64,000 bases of DNA, taken from positions 186,001 to 250,000 of the forward strand of contig NZ_VEED01000006.1 of the NCBI RefSeq assembly GCF_007678255.1, written 5' to 3'. Positions 43,297 to 57,540 of this stretch are shown one piece after another. Each line of letters begins with the position of its first letter. The stretch's first letter is position 1. This DNA is from Bacillus sp. X1(2014) (GTDB lineage Bacteria; Bacillota; Bacilli; Bacillales_B; DSM-18226). A model generated the notes under the pieces. It had not been told where the DNA came from and made no database searches. It saw only the letters and a list, made by a program, of their open reading frames with translations. The translations under genes and the position numbers were made by a program.

Positions 43297-46200
43297 TTAT
43301 TTCTTAACAACTTTAACTGTAGCAGTAGAGCTAGTGTTTCCAGCCTTATCTTTTACAGTTACTGTTAAAACAGTTCCTGTTTTAAGAGCTTTTTTTAGCT
43401 TAACACTGTACTCGCCTTTAGAATTTACAACAGCCGTTCCAACTGTTTTTGATCCAACTTTAACCGTTACAATTGCGCCTGCTTCTGCTTTACCAGTAAC
43501 TTTCAAATCATTGCTGTCAACTTTCTTAACAGAAGGTTTTCCAGGCTTTGTTTTGTCTTTTACTGATACAGTTGCAGCTCCACTTACATTTCCAGCTTTG
43601 TCAGTTGCAGTTACACTAACAACCGTTTTAGCCTTAATTGAATTTCTTAATGTAACGCTGAATTTACCATATTTATCAGCATAAGCAGTACCTACAGTAG
43701 TAGAGCCAACTTTAGCTGTAACTTTAGATCCAACTTCTGCCTTACCAGTTATCTTCTTATCATAGTCTTTCACTTCGTACACAGTTGGGGCGCCAGGTGC
43801 GGCATTATCCAACGCGAACGATTTTGAAGTCCATTTTAAAGCATTGCCAAGAGCATCTACGCCGCGAACATGTAAATACCAAAGGCCGTTTTTACCTGAA
43901 AGCTTTAACGTGCTGCCATTTGTGAACTTACTCCAGCCAGTTGCAGGGGCAGAAGTAGTTTGTGACCATACATACTCAAGTGAGTTAGCTTCTGCATCCT
44001 TCACAGTTACCTTAGCAGCAACTGCTTTGGCAGGTGTTGTACTGCCATTTGGTGCAACAGAAGCTGTTGGTGCATCATTATCTACTCCAAATGAAGTTTG
44101 TCCGGAAACAGCATTGCCTTCTTCATCTGTAGCTGTTACTTTTACAGTATAATTACCAGTTGCACTGTTTGGTAATGTTAATGTACGCTCAAATGATTTG
44201 TCAGTACCAGTTAATGTTTCAGACTCAGTTAATACCACTTTGCCATTCTTATCAACTAGTTCATATTTAAGAGCTACACTCTCACCAGGTCCATCAAGGT
44301 GAACTTGACCTGAAACCGTTAATTCTTTATGGCCGGCTTGGTTTGAATAAGCAGTCTTGCTTAATGGGTTTAATTCCACTTTGTCGATATTTCCTGTATG
44401 AAGTTCAATTGCTCCAACAGACATATCATCCGCTTGACCTGTTACGTGAATCTTTAAGCCATACTTTGGTACATTACGGCCTGAATAAATTAAACCGGCA
44501 TTTGTATAATCTCTTGAATCGTCAAATGCAGTTACTGCAGGTTGCGCACCTAAAGTCATATAACCAAGACCATAATCTAAGAACAACTTACCTGTTTTGT
44601 TTAATGAGAAAGCTGCATCTTTAATTTGGTATCTAGTATTAGCAGGACCATAGTAATTGGTATTGTCACTGATGTTGCTATCTTTCCAGATTGCTGTTTC
44701 TTGATGCGCATCAACAACTCCTAAAAACCCTTCGCCTGGATGATCGCCTACCCAGTTATCGGTATATTTGTTGTCAACATACCAAAGAACAAGACCTGGA
44801 TCATGAGTTAATACAGATTTTCCGCGAGTAGTAGCAGCAAGTCCGCTGTCGGTACCTGCATGAGAACGCCACTCAGCTAAATAGTATTGTGTTGATAATT
44901 TAATACCATTATTTTTCTCGAAGCCAGTAAGAGTAAACGGTGAAGTTGCACCTTCAGCATCGTCTGTTAAAACATCCGCGCCATCAGCAGTTACTTTCAC
45001 ATCATCTACAAAGAAACCAGGAAGAGAAACCCCAGCATCTGTTACATAATGGAAGCGAAGAGACACTTTTTTGCCGGCGAATGCAGAAAGGTCAAATGTA
45101 GCATCTACCCAATCCTTAGAGTCGCCTGTGATTCCGTTGCCTAGATTTGCTTCATATGGGTTAGTAGTTGTTGTGATATTCCCTGGAATTGGAACATAGC
45201 TTGTAGCGCCATCTTCTTTTACTTCAACATAGGCATAATCATAACCATCTTCAATCTTGTACCAAGTCTTAAATGTTAATTGTGCAGTTGTTTTACCTGT
45301 TAAATCAACATTAGCTGCCATTGAAGTGTTAATGTCATCTGCACTACCGCTAAAGTATTCATATTGACCACTTGACGGAGTGTTGATTGTTGTTGATTTA
45401 TCTGGCAGATTTATTTTTACAGCATCAGCGTTTGTACCTTTGTCATTTGCTTGGTCTAATTTAACTGTTTTTCCATCTGTTAAGTCAGAAAGATTATATT
45501 CTACATCTTTGAACCAGTTTGATCCTGGCATTGTTGCTTGTAAAAATTCTTTGTCATAAGGACTGAAACTTGTTGGTTCTGTTCCGTTGATTTTACCAGC
45601 CCAGCTTCCTGCTGACATGATTGTCCAATATTCAGTAGGAGCACCAACTGAATTAGCTGTGTACATTGTGTCATATTCATCAGGTAATCCTAAGTCATGA
45701 CCAAATTCGTGCGCAAATACACCTGCAGCGCCATCTTCTGGCTCAATTGTGTATCCATATGCAATCATCTGACCATCCCAATATGGAACTTTTGCAGTTG
45801 AATTAGGAATCCCTTGTAAGTCGGTAAGTGCAGAGCTGTGTGACCAAATCGCATCGCCACCAAGTGAGCCGCCGCCAGCTTCTTCACCAATACCCGAGTG
45901 GACAACCATTAAGTGGTCGATGATTCCATCTGGCTCAAAATAATTGCCATCTCTATCTAAGTCGAATTCATCTTGAATATCATAATCTTGTAAATTAATA
46001 TCCGGATCTTGTGCTGCTTGAGCTAACGCTTCTTTAACTAATGAACGTGGATGTGCATCATTTCCATCTGGTGCTGGCACGTTACCGCCATAATATGCTG
46101 CTGGCTGGCTCGCTGTATACCATTTAGAAACTTGTCCATCAACGGTATAACTGCCACCTGATTGTTCTTCGTAATATTGTTTCATCGAAACAAGTTTTTC

Positions 46201-46857
46201 ACCATTTGGACCCGTATACCCATCTTCACCAAAGATCATATCCTCGTAATGTTTTTGAGTATAATCGTCATATTGAAGAACTGCTCCTTCACCTTCTTTA
46301 ATCGTACTATGAGGTGCATCTGGATAATCAATTAATAAAACAAGTACCTTATCTGTTCTTTCTGAACCTTCCCAAGTTTCCTTTTGAATTGGGTCTACTT
46401 TAGAAGTAGTAACATAAGTAGATTCCCTTGCCTTAGAGGCTTTCGCTTTTGGGGCAATAGCATCTTGTACTTTTAAGTTTGCCTTTTCTTGTAATTTAGT
46501 ACGAATTTGCTTTACTTCTTGCTGATTTGTCCCAGCAACGTTGGCTTTAGCCGCACGTTTTGCAAAATATGCATTCATTTGTTTTTGCTGCTCTTGAGGA
46601 GAGGCAGTTTTGCTCACGATACCTTGATCGATTAATAGTTTTAGAACTTTTTCATCATTTACTAGACCAATATCAAAAGGACCGCCAGTGTGCTTGCCAA
46701 GGAATGGCAGTGTTGATCCTTCTGGAGTTTGTAAAACATTTGCGTATGGAACTTTTGAAACATTCGTAGTCTTCGCAAATGCAGCTGGTGCAAAGGAACT
46801 AACTACAAGACCAGTCGATAATAGTGAAGTCCCAAGGACATTCTTCCAATTTACCAC
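43297..46857 (-). CDS. inhA: Immune inhibitor A-type M6 metalloprotease with C-terminal Ig-like repeats
   Basis: The 1186-residue secreted protease has a signal peptide (1-28), a propeptide (to about 150) and a thermolysin-like fold with the zinc motif HEFGHDLGLPDE (His383, Glu384, His387). A MAM/VEG-like jelly-roll follows (about 500-630). Beyond the usual InhA length (about 800 residues) come an FN3-like module and two Ig-like modules ending ..GxVTxKVGSxTVGTAxxxxxGxxxVxL. InhA enzymes cleave host proteins in the B. cereus group, but homologues are widespread in soil bacilli. GTG start after AGGGGG. Confidence 0.93.
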   Translation of the reverse strand: MVNWKNVLGTSLLSTGLVVSSFAPAAFAKTTNVSKVPYANVLQTPEGSTLPFLGKHTGGPFDIGLVNDEKVLKLLIDQGIVSKTASPQEQQKQMNAYFAKRAAKANVAGTNQQEVKQIRTKLQEKANLKVQDAIAPKAKASKARESTYVTTSKVDPIQKETWEGSERTDKVLVLLIDYPDAPHSTIKEGEGAVLQYDDYTQKHYEDMIFGEDGYTGPNGEKLVSMKQYYEEQSGGSYTVDGQVSKWYTASQPAAYYGGNVPAPDGNDAHPRSLVKEALAQAAQDPDINLQDYDIQDEFDLDRDGNYFEPDGIIDHLMVVHSGIGEEAGGGSLGGDAIWSHSSALTDLQGIPNSTAKVPYWDGQMIAYGYTIEPEDGAAGVFAHEFGHDLGLPDEYDTMYTANSVGAPTEYWTIMSAGSWAGKINGTEPTSFSPYDKEFLQATMPGSNWFKDVEYNLSDLTDGKTVKLDQANDKGTNADAVKINLPDKSTTINTPSSGQYEYFSGSADDINTSMAANVDLTGKTTAQLTFKTWYKIEDGYDYAYVEVKEDGATSYVPIPGNITTTTNPYEANLGNGITGDSKDWVDATFDLSAFAGKKVSLRFHYVTDAGVSLPGFFVDDVKVTADGADVLTDDAEGATSPFTLTGFEKNNGIKLSTQYYLAEWRSHAGTDSGLAATTRGKSVLTHDPGLVLWYVDNKYTDNWVGDHPGEGFLGVVDAHQETAIWKDSNISDNTNYYGPANTRYQIKDAAFSLNKTGKLFLDYGLGYMTLGAQPAVTAFDDSRDYTNAGLIYSGRNVPKYGLKIHVTGQADDMSVGAIELHTGNIDKVELNPLSKTAYSNQAGHKELTVSGQVHLDGPGESVALKYELVDKNGKVVLTESETLTGTDKSFERTLTLPNSATGNYTVKVTATDEEGNAVSGQTSFGVDNDAPTASVAPNGSTTPAKAVAAKVTVKDAEANSLEYVWSQTTSAPATGWSKFTNGSTLKLSGKNGLWYLHVRGVDALGNALKWTSKSFALDNAAPGAPTVYEVKDYDKKITGKAEVGSKVTAKVGSTTVGTAYADKYGKFSVTLRNSIKAKTVVSVTATDKAGNVSGAATVSVKDKTKPGKPSVKKVDSNDLKVTGKAEAGAIVTVKVGSKTVGTAVVNSKGEYSVKLKKALKTGTVLTVTVKDKAGNTSSTATVKVVKK

Positions 46858-53052: not shown

Positions 53053-53658
53053 TTACTTATTCATGTTAGCAAGAAAACCACCAAGTAAGTCGTCGATATC
53101 CGGCTCCACTTCGTTTTCCTCTTCTTCAAGTAAAGGTTGCTTTTCTTTTGCATCTTCCCAGTCAAACTCACTGAGGTCATCATCCATATCACTTAAATCG
53201 ATAGGGGGGGATGGAACCTCCTTACCAGCAGCAATCTGCAGATAACTGTCATCTTTTTGAAGTTTCTCGGGAAATACCTCTTCCTGAAGATACAAAGCTT
53301 CATCGATATCAATTGAATGACTGTTTAATGAAGCAAGCAGCGAGGTCGAACGAACTGGATCAGAAATCAGCTGATAAAGAATACTCCCCAGCAAAGCTTC
53401 TGAATGCTCATGCTTTAACCAATTTCGCTGGGCTTTCGTTAACTTCTGGGGAAGGGGAATCGTAATGGTCTCCTTTTCCCGCGAAACAGAACTACTTACA
53501 CCTTGCATTACAAACTCGGCAATTTTACTGGAAAAATTCCTTCTTTCTGTATCCTTCAACCTTTGTAAATGCTTTAAGATATGGTCAGGTGTATCAGAGG
53601 GGATGCGAAAGGATATGGCTTGTCCCCGCTGAACCTCGTTTGAGGCTGGTTTTTTCAT
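53053..53658 (-). CDS. parR: ParR-like DNA-binding adaptor of an actin-type segregation system
   Basis: The 201-residue protein follows parM by 11 bases, its RBS AAGGTGAT overlapping the parM stop. Residues 12-55 (QAISFRIPSDTPDHILKHLQRL...FSSKIAEFVMQGV) fit a ribbon-helix-helix domain of the ParR/RHH kind. A middle helical part and a strongly acidic tail follow (about 155-190), ending DIDDLLGGFLANMNK, a plausible ParM-binding tail. It is longer than plasmid R1 ParR (about 117 residues). The call rests on gene order, predicted fold and the nearby iterons, not on strong sequence similarity. Confidence 0.72.
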   Translation of the reverse strand: MKKPASNEVQRGQAISFRIPSDTPDHILKHLQRLKDTERRNFSSKIAEFVMQGVSSSVSREKETITIPLPQKLTKAQRNWLKHEHSEALLGSILYQLISDPVRSTSLLASLNSHSIDIDEALYLQEEVFPEKLQKDDSYLQIAAGKEVPSPPIDLSDMDDDLSEFDWEDAKEKQPLLEEEENEVEPDIDDLLGGFLANMNK

Positions 53659-53669
53659 ATATAATCACC

Positions 53670-54848
53670 TTATTTAGCTTTTACAGGTTCAACTCTAGGC
53701 GCTGTTTGTTTTTCTGACTTTCGAACAAAGTCCATGATGAGTTTATAATAAGCATTGGCCATCATCCAAATACTTTCTTTCCCATCTTCAAAGAAATCAA
53801 TATTGTAACCGTCTAAATTGTTATTCAATGTTTTAAGATATTCCTTTAAGACATTGGCACCGCCACCGACAAAGTAGCAAATTTCCGTTTGCGAGTTTCT
53901 CTGCCAAACATTACGTAATAAACGATATTGCTTTTTAGCTAAATCAAGCAGGATTCGGTCGGTAATATCGTGAACGCTCGTCCGGCTTCCTTTAACCATG
54001 ATATGATTGCGGTCACTTTTCTTCGTAATAATCTCAACAACATCACGGCGGCTATCGAGCTCAACGCCATGCTTTGTTCTAATCTCTTCACGAATAGCTT
54101 CTAATGATTCTGAAACTCCTAAATTAAACCCTTGGGCTTTATCATCATCAACATTACGATTTTTGATGACAGCGATATCTGTAGATAATCCACCGATATC
54201 TTGAATTAAGATGCGCTTATCAATAAGATCCTTATTGATGATTTTTCCGCTGTTATCCAAAACAAGATTAATAAATGCGGCGAAACCTTCCGGGTATACT
54301 TTTACTTCATCAAATTTAATATTTACTTTCAATCCTTGGTACTTTGGAGTGACAAGGAATTCAACTTGATGGACTGAACCTACTAATTTAGAGCGGTAGC
54401 CAGCATCTTTTCCTTCTTTTACTTCGCGAAGGGGAAGTCCTGTTCCCAATGTATAATTGGCATCAATTATATTTTTAGTGCGCGGAAAAGCATTTGAGTT
54501 ATTTTCCTTTACCGCATCTAAAGCTAATGTTGCAAAAAGCATAATTAGCGTTTGGTCTTCCTCAGACTTGCTGCTGCCAGGATCTAGCTCAGTTGCATTA
54601 ATACTTTTCGTAGCTAAATTACCAATCCGATAAATTCCGTTGTTTTCTTTTAAAGCAGGGGAGTGGACTTTGATGTGAATTCCATCTAATGGATTTTTAT
54701 TATCAAGTTCTTCAATCCCGATAACAGGTCGATCTTCTGTATCCCTAGCAATAATGTTAGGAATATTTAATTCATATTCTAATTCTCCGAAAATGGCCTT
54801 AATAGAGTCATTCCCAACGTCAATAGCTGCAACTCTGGATTTAGTCAT
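53670..54848 (-). CDS. parM: ParM/StbA-like actin ATPase
   Basis: The 392-residue protein has actin-fold motifs: phosphate 1 AAIDVGNDSIKAIFG at the start, phosphate 2 IQDIGGLSTDIAVI near 218 and the adenosine motif YFVGGGANVLKEY near 335. This is the ParM/StbA/Alp class that polymerises to push DNA copies apart. The start at 54848 follows AAAAGGA; an upstream ATG at 54857 has no RBS. It is the first gene of a parM-parR operon, and centromere-like iterons start about 125 bases upstream. Confidence 0.88.
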   Translation of the reverse strand: MTKSRVAAIDVGNDSIKAIFGELEYELNIPNIIARDTEDRPVIGIEELDNKNPLDGIHIKVHSPALKENNGIYRIGNLATKSINATELDPGSSKSEEDQTLIMLFATLALDAVKENNSNAFPRTKNIIDANYTLGTGLPLREVKEGKDAGYRSKLVGSVHQVEFLVTPKYQGLKVNIKFDEVKVYPEGFAAFINLVLDNSGKIINKDLIDKRILIQDIGGLSTDIAVIKNRNVDDDKAQGFNLGVSESLEAIREEIRTKHGVELDSRRDVVEIITKKSDRNHIMVKGSRTSVHDITDRILLDLAKKQYRLLRNVWQRNSQTEICYFVGGGANVLKEYLKTLNNNLDGYNIDFFEDGKESIWMMANAYYKLIMDFVRKSEKQTAPRVEPVKAK

Positions 54849-54973
54849 TAATATCATTCCTTTTCAATATTTAGATTTATTTTTAATAGTGGGTATGTAA
54901 TTCTAGGTCCTTCTTTAAGGTTATAGAAGATTAATAGATTCTTCAAGATTTCTCAGCAAAAAAAAATATAACT

Positions 54974-55146
54974 GTAAAGTTGTAAACAACATGTAAACTT
55001 CAACTCATTGTATACATTTATGTAAACAATGATGACAAAATCGTATACGAGGCTCTGTTTTACTATGTGTACAGGTTTGTTTACATGTAAACCAATTTGT
55101 AAACAAAAAGTATACAAATTGTAAACAAGTACACAAAAATGTATAC
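54974..55146. repeat. Iteron array 1 upstream of parM, candidate parC centromere
   Basis: About a dozen GTAWAC-type hexamers (GTAAAC, GTATAC, GTGTAC, GTTTAC, GTACAC) occur, for example at 54982, 54993, 55010, 55022, 55043, 55067, 55079, 55087, 55099, 55110, 55121, 55129 and 55141. Much of the spacing is 11-12 bases, about one helical turn, so a protein would bind one face. It lies next to parM as parC does in type II partition loci. Confidence 0.75.
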
Positions 55147-55290
55147 TTACGATAATTTCCCCTGTCTAATTCTCCATTTTAATCATCGTATTCCTAAGTA
55201 AAAAAGCACTCATCAAATTTCTACTTATCTATTCCGTATTAGGACATAGTGCGCTGCCAATTTCATCTTTTTGTACTTTGTAAGTTTGTG

Positions 55291-55479
55291 CTATCCCTCA
55301 AATAAATTCGAACTAATTGAATCATAAATTTCATCTTTTTCGAGAAGATTCCCCAGATTGTAGGAGAGGGGGAGCCTGAGTGTTGTTTCTACCCTCATTC
55401 TCCTAAAGAAAGACCATCTTACATCTGTCTCAGAGCTGACCTGGGAATTTTCATGACACAAGAGATGGAAGAATAACAT
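55291..55479 (-). pseudogene. Strongly decayed third copy of the L,D-transpeptidase 3' end
   Basis: Recognisable blocks align, on the plus strand, with the 3' end of the intact gene: TTTTTCGAGAAGATTCCCCAG against TTTGTCGAGATAATCCCAC, ACCATCTTACATCTGTCTCAGAG against ACCATCTGCCTTCAGAG, and TTTTCATGAC against TTTTCATCA. An open frame of 62 codons survives but has no RBS or domain. Similarity is partial, so confidence is moderate. Confidence 0.55.
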
Positions 55480-55571
55480 TCCTCACTCGCTAGCCATCCG
55501 GCTTCACACCAATGACTAATCAAACTTTTGTCTAAAATGATGACAGATCTTAAAATTCATGGCGTGGATAT

Positions 55572-55676
55572 AAGATGTGTACAGGTTTGTCCACATGTAA
55601 ACGAATTTGTAAATAACAAGCATACAAAACGTAAACAGGTATACAAATTCGTAGACGTGTCTGCAAAAATGTATAC
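55572..55676. repeat. Iteron array 2
   Basis: This block aligns base for base over long stretches with array 1 (GATGTGTACAGGTTTGTCCACATG, GTAAACGAATTTGTAAAT, CATACAAAACGTAAACAGG, ending CAAAAATGTATAC). Several hexamers are mutated (GCATAC, GTAGAC), so it is more decayed than arrays 1 and 3. Confidence 0.75.
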
Positions 55677-55796
55677 TAGTTCCATAACTCCTCTCGTAAC
55701 CACAAACCTTTAATTTTAAATCCTTACTCCCTTCTCTCAAAAAAACACACCATAATCACCAATGGATGGAGAAGGGCATAGTTCCCTACCCTTTAT

Positions 55797-56051
55797 TCAT
55801 GGAGCCGGGAACCATATCTTCACGAACATAGAGGAATACCATTTCTCCTTGTAATTCAACCAGCCGGTCACGACTGATTCATGACTGTTTAATTTGTACC
55901 TTTCTCCTAATAAATCTGGCTCATCAGATTCTATATATTCATTTTTGTCGAGATAATCCCACTGACTATTGTAAATGAGCTCCTGCGTATTTTTCATCAT
56001 GCCATAACCATTAAGGAAATACCATCTGCCTTCAGATTTGACCCAACCCAC
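55797..56051 (-). pseudogene. Truncated second copy of the L,D-transpeptidase 3' end
   Basis: The 84-codon frame matches the C-terminal part of the intact neighbour: GWVKSEGRWYFLN, MKNTQEL, NSQWDYLDK, KLNSHESVVTGWLNYKEKWY. A one-base loss after KEKWY shifts the last part (SSMFVKIWFPAP instead of YLYVSEDMVASA). There is no start region, signal peptide or YkuD domain. It is a duplicated gene end, not a gene. Confidence 0.88.
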
Positions 56052-56131
56052 TGGTTTTCATCACGATGGTGCTATCAAATAATCTCATCCTTCACATCAG
56101 TTAACAAAATAATACCGCTGTTATTAAGATA

Positions 56132-56260
56132 TTTGTAAACAATGATTACAAATATGTATACATAGCGCCATTACTTGATGTGTACGAGTTCGTGCACATG
56201 TTTACACTTTTGTAAACAATAAGTATACATAACGTAAACATGTATACAAAAATGCAAACT
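56132..56260. repeat. Iteron array 3
   Basis: Third copy of the iteron block, with TTTGTAAACAATGATTACAAATATGTATACAT, GATGTGTACG, CATGTTTACACTTTTGTAAACAATAAGTATACATAACGTAAAC split across the same spacing as array 1. It lies 92 bases beyond the intact L,D-transpeptidase stop codon. Confidence 0.75.
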
Positions 56261-56352
56261 TACCTTTTAAATCTAACATCAAAAAAAAAGCACCTACTAG
56301 AGGCACTTAAACATGTCTATTAATCTATTAGGCATTTTTCCTACCAGCATAA

Positions 56353-57540
56353 TTACCCTTCACTCATCGCACTGGCAACCATATCCTCACTAACGTAGAG
56401 GTAATACCATTTCTCCTTGTAATTCAACCAGCCGGTCACGACTGATTCATGACTGTTTAATTTGTACTTTTCTGCTAATAAATTTGACCCTTCCAATTCA
56501 GTATCTTCACTTTTGTCGAGATAATCCCACTGACTATTGTTAACAAGTTCCTGTGTATTTTTCATTACCCCCTGGTCATTAAGGAAATACCATCTGCCTT
56601 CAGAGTTGATCCAACCTGTTTTCATCAGCCCTGAATCATCGAGATAGTACCATTTTCCCCCATCAGCCAGCCAGCCTGTTTCCATTGCACCGCTGTTATC
56701 GAGATAATACCGATTCGCATCGAACGATAACCAGCCGGTTTGCAGAACCCCTTTATTGTCCAGATAATATTTCTGTCCGCTGTCAGCAATCCAGCCCTTT
56801 CTCATCACACCCGTTTGATCAAGATAGTACTTCTTACCGCCTTTTTCAAGCCAACCTGTTTTCATGACGCCTTTTTTATTAAGATAATATTTCTGTCCAT
56901 TCTGGGTAAGCCAGCCGGTCTGCATTACCCCTTCGTCATTAAAGAAATATCTTTTTCCGTTGATCGATTGCCAGCCAGTTTTTACATCACCATCCACATA
57001 ATAGTACTTGTTCCCGCTTAATTCGGCCCAACCGTTGCCATATCCGTTCGCTTTGGCAATTGAATCAAAGCTGCTATCCGTATGGGTGATAATAACTAAT
57101 GTATATTTTTTAACGTGACTATAAAGCCAGCGTATTTCTGAATTATGCATCCGAACGCATCCTGAACTTGCATAGGTGCCAATTGAATTTTCATTGGCAT
57201 TTCCATGAATCGCATAAGTTGTACCATAGGTCCCTCTTGCTTCTAACCCCATCCAGCGGTTACCCAATGGGTTCCGTGGATCTCCTCCAGGAATTTTCAA
57301 TTTATAATAGGGACGATTAACGATTTTAGTAACAATTCTAAATGTGCCTTCTGGTGTAAGTGACCTGGTTCGACCTGTAGCCACTCTAAATGTTTTAACT
57401 AGTTTTCCACCTTCATAAAAGGCAAGCGTGTTAGTCTTTTTATTAATAATAATTAACTGTGAACCGTCACTAGCATCTGCTTGACTCGTAAATAGGAATA
57501 TACTAAATAGCAAGACAAAAATAATAGATAGTTTCTTCAT
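56353..57540 (-). CDS. Secreted L,D-transpeptidase (YkuD) with cell-wall-binding GW repeats
   Basis: The 395-residue protein has a signal peptide (1-24), a YkuD catalytic domain (about 27-155) with His112 (AIHGNANENS) and Cys128 (SSGCVRMHN), then about ten 20-residue repeats of the GWLxxxGxKYYLDxxGxMKTGW type (about 165-330) as in choline/glucan-binding modules. A distinct C-terminal unit (NSQWDYLDK...ESVVTGWLNYKEKWYYLYVSED) ends it. It would cross-link or remodel peptidoglycan at the cell surface. Its 3' end is duplicated twice downstream. Confidence 0.92.
   Translation of the reverse strand: MKKLSIIFVLLFSIFLFTSQADASDGSQLIIINKKTNTLAFYEGGKLVKTFRVATGRTRSLTPEGTFRIVTKIVNRPYYKLKIPGGDPRNPLGNRWMGLEARGTYGTTYAIHGNANENSIGTYASSGCVRMHNSEIRWLYSHVKKYTLVIITHTDSSFDSIAKANGYGNGWAELSGNKYYYVDGDVKTGWQSINGKRYFFNDEGVMQTGWLTQNGQKYYLNKKGVMKTGWLEKGGKKYYLDQTGVMRKGWIADSGQKYYLDNKGVLQTGWLSFDANRYYLDNSGAMETGWLADGGKWYYLDDSGLMKTGWINSEGRWYFLNDQGVMKNTQELVNNSQWDYLDKSEDTELEGSNLLAEKYKLNSHESVVTGWLNYKEKWYYLYVSEDMVASAMSEG

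Follow-up and report, generated by a model that had tools for sequence, protein, structure and literature searches.

An actin-type operon preceded by three arrays

We analysed a stretch of 64,000 nucleotides from Bacillus sp. X1(2014) (contig NZ_VEED01000006.1; hereafter the window), in which an operon for an actin-like ParM and a ParR-like protein is accompanied by arrays of short repeats that we regard as a candidate centromere (parC). Both genes are on the minus strand, parM first and the parR-like gene 11 bp after it. An earlier note on this DNA had described three arrays of GTAWAC hexamers upstream of parM, and all of them are found at the positions that it gave (Table 1). A scan of a genome collection returned 454 relatives, from which we kept 80 named loci (ParM 86-99% identical). 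The closest of these, L001, lies on the complete 6.09 Mb chromosome of Neobacillus sp. SuZ13; its ParM is 99% identical and 16 of 16 compared genes are collinear with the window, which derives from a Neobacillus-type chromosome.

By its C-terminal domain, ParM belongs to the Alp7A family: it matches PF22128 (Alp7A_like_C) with 133.1 bits, above the Pfam cut-off of 22. It also matches ALP_N (38 bits) and PHROG 691 (phrog_691, 'partition protein', 144 bits). The open reading frame contains DVGNDS, DIGGLSTD and GGGAN, which we take to be the actin-fold motifs of ParM and which are nearly all invariant across 17 aligned sequences. The protein is in this respect an actin-like ParM with nucleotide-binding motifs, as in ParCMR systems. 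The ratio of nonsynonymous to synonymous divergence against six relatives is 0.009-0.047 for ParM, 0.051-0.093 for ParR and 0.030-0.039 for PepT; judged by these values, ParM is under purifying selection, with its motifs intact. The synonymous divergence of parM from three relatives (0.77-0.81) is below that of pepT, rluF and an ABC gene (1.0-1.3), perhaps because of codon bias or recombination. Many homologues have 390-393 residues, and parM may in fact begin at an internal ATG (MTKSRVAA).

The ParR-like protein has an N-terminal ribbon-helix-helix (beta-alpha-alpha) pattern, an acidic linker and a C-terminal motif, DLDDLLGDFLxxMNK, that is conserved in chromosomal ParRs and reads DIDDLLGGFLANMNK in the window. 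From this pattern, ParR is probably a ribbon-helix-helix dimer; one low-confidence structural model does start with beta-alpha-alpha. It has no match in Pfam or NCBIfam above the cut-offs and none in PHROG below an E-value of 0.08. The description of the operon as parM-like and parR-like is borne out for an Alp7A-type ParM and a conserved adjoining gene, the ribbon-helix-helix fold of ParR being a candidate at low confidence. Chromosomal ParRs mostly have 185-208 residues, including an extra acidic stretch and the C-terminal motif, whereas the plasmid ParRs that we saw have 138-149 residues and lack this tail motif. The tail could provide a second contact with ParM or bind a host partner, both being possible.

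Table 1. Genes and repeats of the locus, in window coordinates.
Feature	Position	Strand	Evidence
parR-like gene, 201 aa	53053..53658	-	ORF; alignments; adjoins parM in 80/80 named loci
parM, Alp7A-type actin-like ATPase, 395 aa	53670..54857	-	PF22128, ALP_N, phrog_691
conserved block in single copy, from array 1 towards parM; candidate promoter of parMR	54885..54960	-	upstream-region alignment
array 1, candidate parC, 13 TGTAWACA-type sites	54974..55146	.	site count; homologous arrays at orthologues
array 2, diverged copy of array 1, 7 sites (4 exact)	55577..55676	.	self-comparison, site count
array 3, copy of array 1, 9 sites (7 exact), same end register	56135..56259	.	self-comparison, site count
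duplicated 3' fragment of L,D-transpeptidase gene, between arrays 2 and 3	55787..56051	-	self-comparison
L,D-transpeptidase with choline-binding repeats, neighbour	56353..57540	-	YkuD 95 bits; Choline_bind_1 134 bits

Organisation and conservation of the arrays

Exact sites (GTAWAC or GTWTAC) number 11 in array 1 (54982-55146), four in array 2 (55597-55676) and seven in array 3 (56135-56247); when one core mismatch is allowed, the counts are 13, 7 and 9. The densest 180 bp hold 11 exact sites. Order-2 Markov simulations of the window as a whole (n=200) never gave more than four, nor did simulations trained on the array region itself (n=100). Successive sites in array 1 are 11, 17, 12, 21, 24, 12, 8, 12, 11, 11, 8 and 12 bases apart, so that, as the earlier note said, many of the intervals are of 11-12 bases, but not all, the range being 8 to 24. 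Array 3 shares the end register of array 1 (20, 12, 11, 11, 8, 12).

All three arrays share homology (135 nt; 67% and 74% identity) as copies of a common unit, and among these copies the sites are better kept (77-88%) than the linkers (63-65%). Between arrays 2 and 3 lies a 3' fragment of the adjoining L,D-transpeptidase gene, 214 nt at 88% identity plus 48 nt at 79%, which matches Choline_bind_3 at 18.9 bits, below its cut-off. The position of this fragment suggests that the extra arrays arose by local duplication, of which it is probably a by-product. On the evidence of these alignments, the three-array layout is a lineage-specific duplication that kept the spacing register.

Comparison with L001 separates array 1 from the others. 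In array 1 the sites are identical at 66 of 66 positions (100%) and the linkers at 60 of 75 (80%), whereas the counterparts of array 2 (sites 94%, linkers 91%) and of array 3 (92% and 89%) have sites hardly better kept than linkers. Because the contrast is strong only in array 1, this array looks constrained, and looks like the general candidate centromere; the extra arrays hardly do, and may be weak copies. We accordingly dropped the idea of arrays 2 and 3 as proven working copies.

The single-copy block between array 1 and parM has the consensus TAGATTCTTCAAT in an alignment of 81 upstream regions. No promoter was found in it with a simple consensus scan, which overall returned 16 sites against 15.5 expected and was not used.

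A conserved clade with an array at every orthologue checked

The order of the source genome was sampled with 299 genomes: 151 have a match, of which 145 are orthologues at 77-99% ParM identity, and the next matches listed are at 43% or less. The same gap separates the clade from other relatives in a sample of the class (398 genomes), with 24 matches at 77% or more, 16 at 43% or less and none between. In a second order, that of Lysinibacillus halotolerans (L036), 25 of 200 genomes are carriers and one has a further relative at 40%. The two order samples together give 170 carriers among 499 genomes. Three of the named loci, labelled Paenibacillus bovis (L009), Chryseobacterium sp. (L021) and Paenibacillus sp. 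(L023), have ParMs 88-90% like those of Bacillaceae, and their labels are probably wrong.

An array model was trained on 81 upstream regions and tested on 71 further orthologous loci. All 81 training loci and all 71 others have a match within the 500 bp before parM, which places a repeat array beside the operon, as a parC would be, in all 152 loci (151 distinct parM sequences, L095 being a repeat of a training genome). Apart from the 4.2 kb stretch before parM, these loci have no other match. The Ureibacillus/Lysinibacillus-type set (L161-L167, some of which repeat named loci) was positive in 7 of 7. Across 33 arrays, the site columns are 91% conserved and the linkers 66%, with the consensus GTAWAC. 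Extra arrays were found in 15 of the 81 closest loci, in 4 of 55 more distant ones and in none of 16 others: the multi-array layout, whose search in relatives the earlier note had proposed, does recur, but one array is the rule.

The note had also raised the question of arrays elsewhere on the chromosome. In 26 of 28 genomes the model matches this locus only, and in each of the two exceptions it has a single additional weak match (G193, E 5e-6; G300, E 0.008). This search scored 97 of the hundreds to thousands of candidates per genome, so that weak lone arrays could escape it. The additional place in G193 is a weak lone array on a second contig (C2:7906-8020), perhaps a plasmid. Another genome, G019, carries a second array downstream of parMR (C1:3264654-3264807, 57 bits) besides a weaker upstream one. 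A simple pair pattern gave 94 matches in ten genomes against 90 for its reversed control and was used only to place arrays.

Location near the replication origin

We took dnaA as the mark of the replication origin (oriC) and compared the positions of parM and dnaA in 130 genomes, 97 of which have both genes on one contig. In these placed genomes, parM is on the left arm in 95, co-directional with replication in 96 and within 313 kb of dnaA in 95. The largest set consisted of 80 genomes taken from the 145 orthologue carriers, mostly for their longer contigs; 67 were placed, all on the left arm and co-directional, at 36-313 kb from dnaA (median 84 kb, six distances being computed with rounded genome sizes). 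Ten named genomes contributed eight placements, as one repeats the first set and another is split over two contigs; seven are on the left and co-directional at 39-165 kb, and L065 differs. Another 18 named genomes, including one repeat, gave six placements (G670-G673, G678, G681), each on the left arm, co-directional and 50-83 kb from dnaA; the 11 others were on other contigs or unmatched by contig. The last 24 genomes gave 16, eight having the genes on different contigs: 15 are on the left, all 16 are co-directional and the distances range from 32 to 417 kb. Placement on short contigs is biased towards small distances. Among the 40 contigs of at least 3 Mb, some of whose lengths are implied by coordinates, parM is on the left in 38, co-directional in 39 and no more than 313 kb from dnaA in 38.

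Variable neighbours and inheritance

Of the flanking genes that the earlier note had named, we compared pepT and rluF, keeping its names. Near the locus, pepT is found in 30 of the 80 named loci, rluF in 19 and a relative of the transpeptidase in 19; the L,D-transpeptidase is probably not part of the system. At 63 loci of known place, the flanks form 44 upstream and 36 downstream neighbourhood clusters. These were made from short flanks (around 1.2 and 0.8 kb), which over-splits them, and insertions beside the cassette would give a similar picture. An argument for a moved cassette from these counts was kept as weak support only; in-place replacement by recombination could account for the transferred copies. 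Elsewhere in the window (43297-46857) there is a gene for a large secreted protein with a HEFGH metalloprotease motif, by eye presumably immune-inhibitor-A-like. No phage genes were seen by eye in the list of open reading frames of the window, in which no systematic search was aimed at them.

In 76 of the 80 genomes of the first set (four with partial DnaA rows were dropped), the mean identity of ParM agrees with that of DnaA (83.1% vs 83.0%), and the rank correlation between the two is weak (0.26). The Ureibacillus and Lysinibacillus copies of ParM reach 88-90% identity, against 76-77% for the DnaA of these genera. Strict vertical inheritance was therefore rejected, the correlation being low and these copies too similar for their hosts. 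Five loci of this group (L010, L028, L036, L047, L055) share scattered genes only, and no block, with Bacillaceae flanks, and its seven placed genomes (G670-G673, G748, G769, G802) have parM left of dnaA, at 50-83 kb and co-directional. From the sequence comparisons, these copies seem to have been transferred between families, the moved unit being array-parM-parR. In-place replacement of an older copy by recombination is possible.

Relatives on plasmids

Among plasmid records, 83 have a ParM match, all below 60% identity; the 30 listed of these 83 span 25.5-43.6%. No close plasmid relative of the module was found among them. Four phage records hold distant relatives of ParM. Upstream of parM, paired sites with a distance of 11 bp (12 bp in L152) occur in six plasmid loci (L151-L156) and in one plasmid-type copy within a genome (L146). 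Read by eye, six of these seven loci have the core GTATGC or GTATCC and the remaining one GTATAC/GTTTAC. The same shape and place of the sites with changed letters favours the operon's own ParR as their reader. The array model has no match in the six plasmid loci or in the plasmid-type genomic copies L146, L147 and L186. Like the chromosomal locus, the plasmid relatives have a small gene directly after parM (5 of 6 loci); unlike it, they have about four upstream sites. Two of them carry many ACATGTA/ATGTAAA repeats downstream of parR (L151, 2131-3205; L154, 3580-4053), which are possibly their real centromere, on the opposite side from the chromosomal array.

A putative partition system for the origin region

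We interpret the locus as a chromosomal ParCMR system by which the region around the origin is moved or kept in position, possibly during sporulation, and give this reading a probability of around 0.6. One of the two alternatives in the earlier note, a chromosomally fixed actin system, gains support from the identity gap to plasmids, the spread of the clade through two orders, the array at every orthologue checked and the near-constant place by dnaA. That the array works as a centromere we infer, as that note did. By analogy with characterised partition systems, ParR dimers would bind the TGTAWACA sites side by side and turn the array into a docking scaffold, on DNA that mostly lies 30-300 kb from dnaA. 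ParM would polymerise and the ParR-array complex would hold the filament ends, most likely through the conserved acidic C-terminal part of ParR. Filaments that push, pull or anchor could in this way move the sister origin regions apart after their replication, or hold them in position. The operon would probably also be repressed by ParR, from its sites beside the parMR promoter. In all 28 genomes tested, two ParB-type (ParB_N) genes are found no more than about 30 kb from dnaA, which suggests that the system would work in addition to ParABS.

A number of observations weigh against this interpretation. About half of the genomes in the order of the source genome have no orthologue, so the system is not needed for chromosome segregation in general. 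Three placed genomes depart from the common location: in L065, parM is 764 kb from dnaA, on the other arm and head-on; in G743 it is on the other arm at 280 kb; in G762 it is 417 kb away. All three are on contigs longer than 3 Mb, where distance is best measured. Some of the constancy in place may also be due to gene order near oriC being stable in general. The copies of Ureibacillus and Lysinibacillus and the weak correlation between ParM and DnaA point away from purely vertical descent, and the counterparts of arrays 2 and 3 in L001 speak against strong selection on the extra arrays. The plasmid-type copy L147 has few, poorly paired sites. Sequence and profile searches with ParR against the PDB found no credible match. 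Its AlphaFold2 models, from 41 and 49 sequences, leave the fold unconfirmed (mean predicted local distance difference test scores of 52 and 65), and a Foldseek search of the PDB with a model gave no match with E below 4. With weak models and no structural match, the ribbon-helix-helix call is one of sequence pattern.

The main competitor, which we consider rather unlikely, would confine the system to sporulation: it would capture the origin region or pull it to the forespore pole and leave vegetative segregation untouched. In B. subtilis, forespore origin capture depends on RacA with Spo0J and DivIVA. All 170 carriers have a spoIVA match (145 of the 288 spoIVA genomes in one order and 25 of the 144 in the other), whereas none of the 67 genomes without spoIVA is a carrier (0/11 and 0/56; Fisher p 8.5e-4 and 2.0e-4, without correction for kinship). 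The origin-proximal place would also fit a capture of this region. Yet spoIVA may have been lost in few events, in which case the genomes are not independent, and the association is a lead rather than a result. Moreover, 262 genomes with spoIVA lack the system, and the genes around the locus vary. We regard as improbable a domesticated plasmid module directed against related plasmids, with an array that titrates the plasmid ParR or causes partition incompatibility. Plasmids with related ParMs do circulate in the same families (the 83 records above), and the weak array match of G193 is on a second contig. At the identities listed, and with other core letters in six of seven loci, cross-recognition is doubtful, and such a role requires no fixed, origin-proximal and co-directional place.

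Recent integration of a plasmid or other mobile element, close to the other alternative in the earlier note, is very unlikely. Plasmids typically carry systems of this type, relatives differ in their flanking genes and some copies look transferred, but in 95 of the 97 placed genomes, across genera, the operon keeps to one arm close to dnaA; its ParM is on average as conserved as DnaA, and no plasmid record reaches 60% ParM identity. The least probable explanation is the one mentioned in the note as another reading of the sites, that the arrays are operators through which the wall regulator WalR controls the neighbouring L,D-transpeptidase. The WalR consensus is TGTWAH-N5-TGTWAH. The neighbour is a wall enzyme and array 1 has one such pair, at 54981; arrays 2 and 3 have none and three more lie elsewhere in the window, which is not the distribution of an operator array. 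The array accompanies parMR in 80 of 80 named loci, against 19 with a transpeptidase relative nearby, and 13 sites over 170 bp exceed the need of an operator. In 26 of the 28 genomes searched, the array model has no match outside the locus, although a lone operator would be missed by it.

Whether bacterial actins move chromosomes is an old, unsettled question. In its wider form, our interpretation of the locus as an origin-positioning ParCMR system would mean that, in two or more orders of spore-forming Bacilli, the chromosome has next to ParABS another centromere near oriC, one driven by actin: a ParM filament, coupled by a ParR with a chromosome-specific tail, would actively move or anchor sister origins, probably on entering sporulation. 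We put this forward tentatively, at somewhat less than even odds. If true, it would to our knowledge be the first bacterial actin shown to segregate the chromosome of its own host via a dedicated centromere. The clade makes the question testable: its candidate centromere is conserved and sits at a nearly fixed place near oriC, it is widely distributed, and its hosts include named isolates. Some relatives have the system and others lack it, some have a single array and others three, and some hold copies that seem to have been transferred, which together offer a natural experiment.

Comparison with known systems

The ParMRC system of plasmid R1 combines repeats about 11 bp apart before the operon, a ribbon-helix-helix adaptor and an actin filament. 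The present system would work alike, but it is on the chromosome near oriC, has a ParM of another subfamily and mixes spacings of 8, 11 and 12. The likeness to Alp7A, Alp7R and alp7C of plasmid pLS20 is that of the family name of PF22128, the sequences compared being those of the plasmid relatives described above. ParABS (Soj-Spo0J-parS) of Bacillus is likewise an origin-proximal chromosomal centromere, with another motor, adaptor and site. AlpAC-alpS of the Corynebacterium prophage CGP3 shares with the present system a chromosome-encoded actin, a DNA adaptor and a site, and differs from it in serving the prophage, as far as the accessible text of its descriptions goes (PMC4446434, PMC5539076).

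A close parallel is with the chromosome-encoded ParMs (cParMs) reported in 2025 in J Biol Chem (PMC12270681), here described from the accessible part of that paper: Dh-cParMR-1 of Desulfitobacterium, Cb-cParCMR of Clostridium and Bt-cParMR of Bacillus tropicus, with conservation of cParM in Desulfitobacterium, Moorella and Bacillus. According to this source, ParCMR had not yet been implicated in chromosome segregation. The ParM of the window is likewise chromosome-encoded and kept among related species, given the complete chromosome of L001 and the 145 carriers among 299 genomes of the order. Both cases have, as far as that text goes, a chromosomal ParM with an adjoining ParR, high conservation within the group and ParA/ParB genes alongside, and in Cb-cParC palindromic repeats beside the operon bind its ParR. 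They differ in that the paper has this ParR-binding cparC in one Clostridium strain and reports that it is not conserved among strains. The word 'oriC' occurs once in its main text as accessible, in the reference list, so that place relative to the origin is not treated there under that word. Bt-cParM of Bacillus tropicus was set beside the present clade by its description in this source only. A literature search, with thin coverage of subscription papers, returned no paper on the present clade, and among the papers listed PMC12270681 was the sole one apparently on chromosomal ParMs. Chromosomal ParMs are thus known as a kind since 2025, and what appears to be new here is a clade with a conserved, origin-proximal candidate centromere, which the accessible text of PMC12270681 does not describe.

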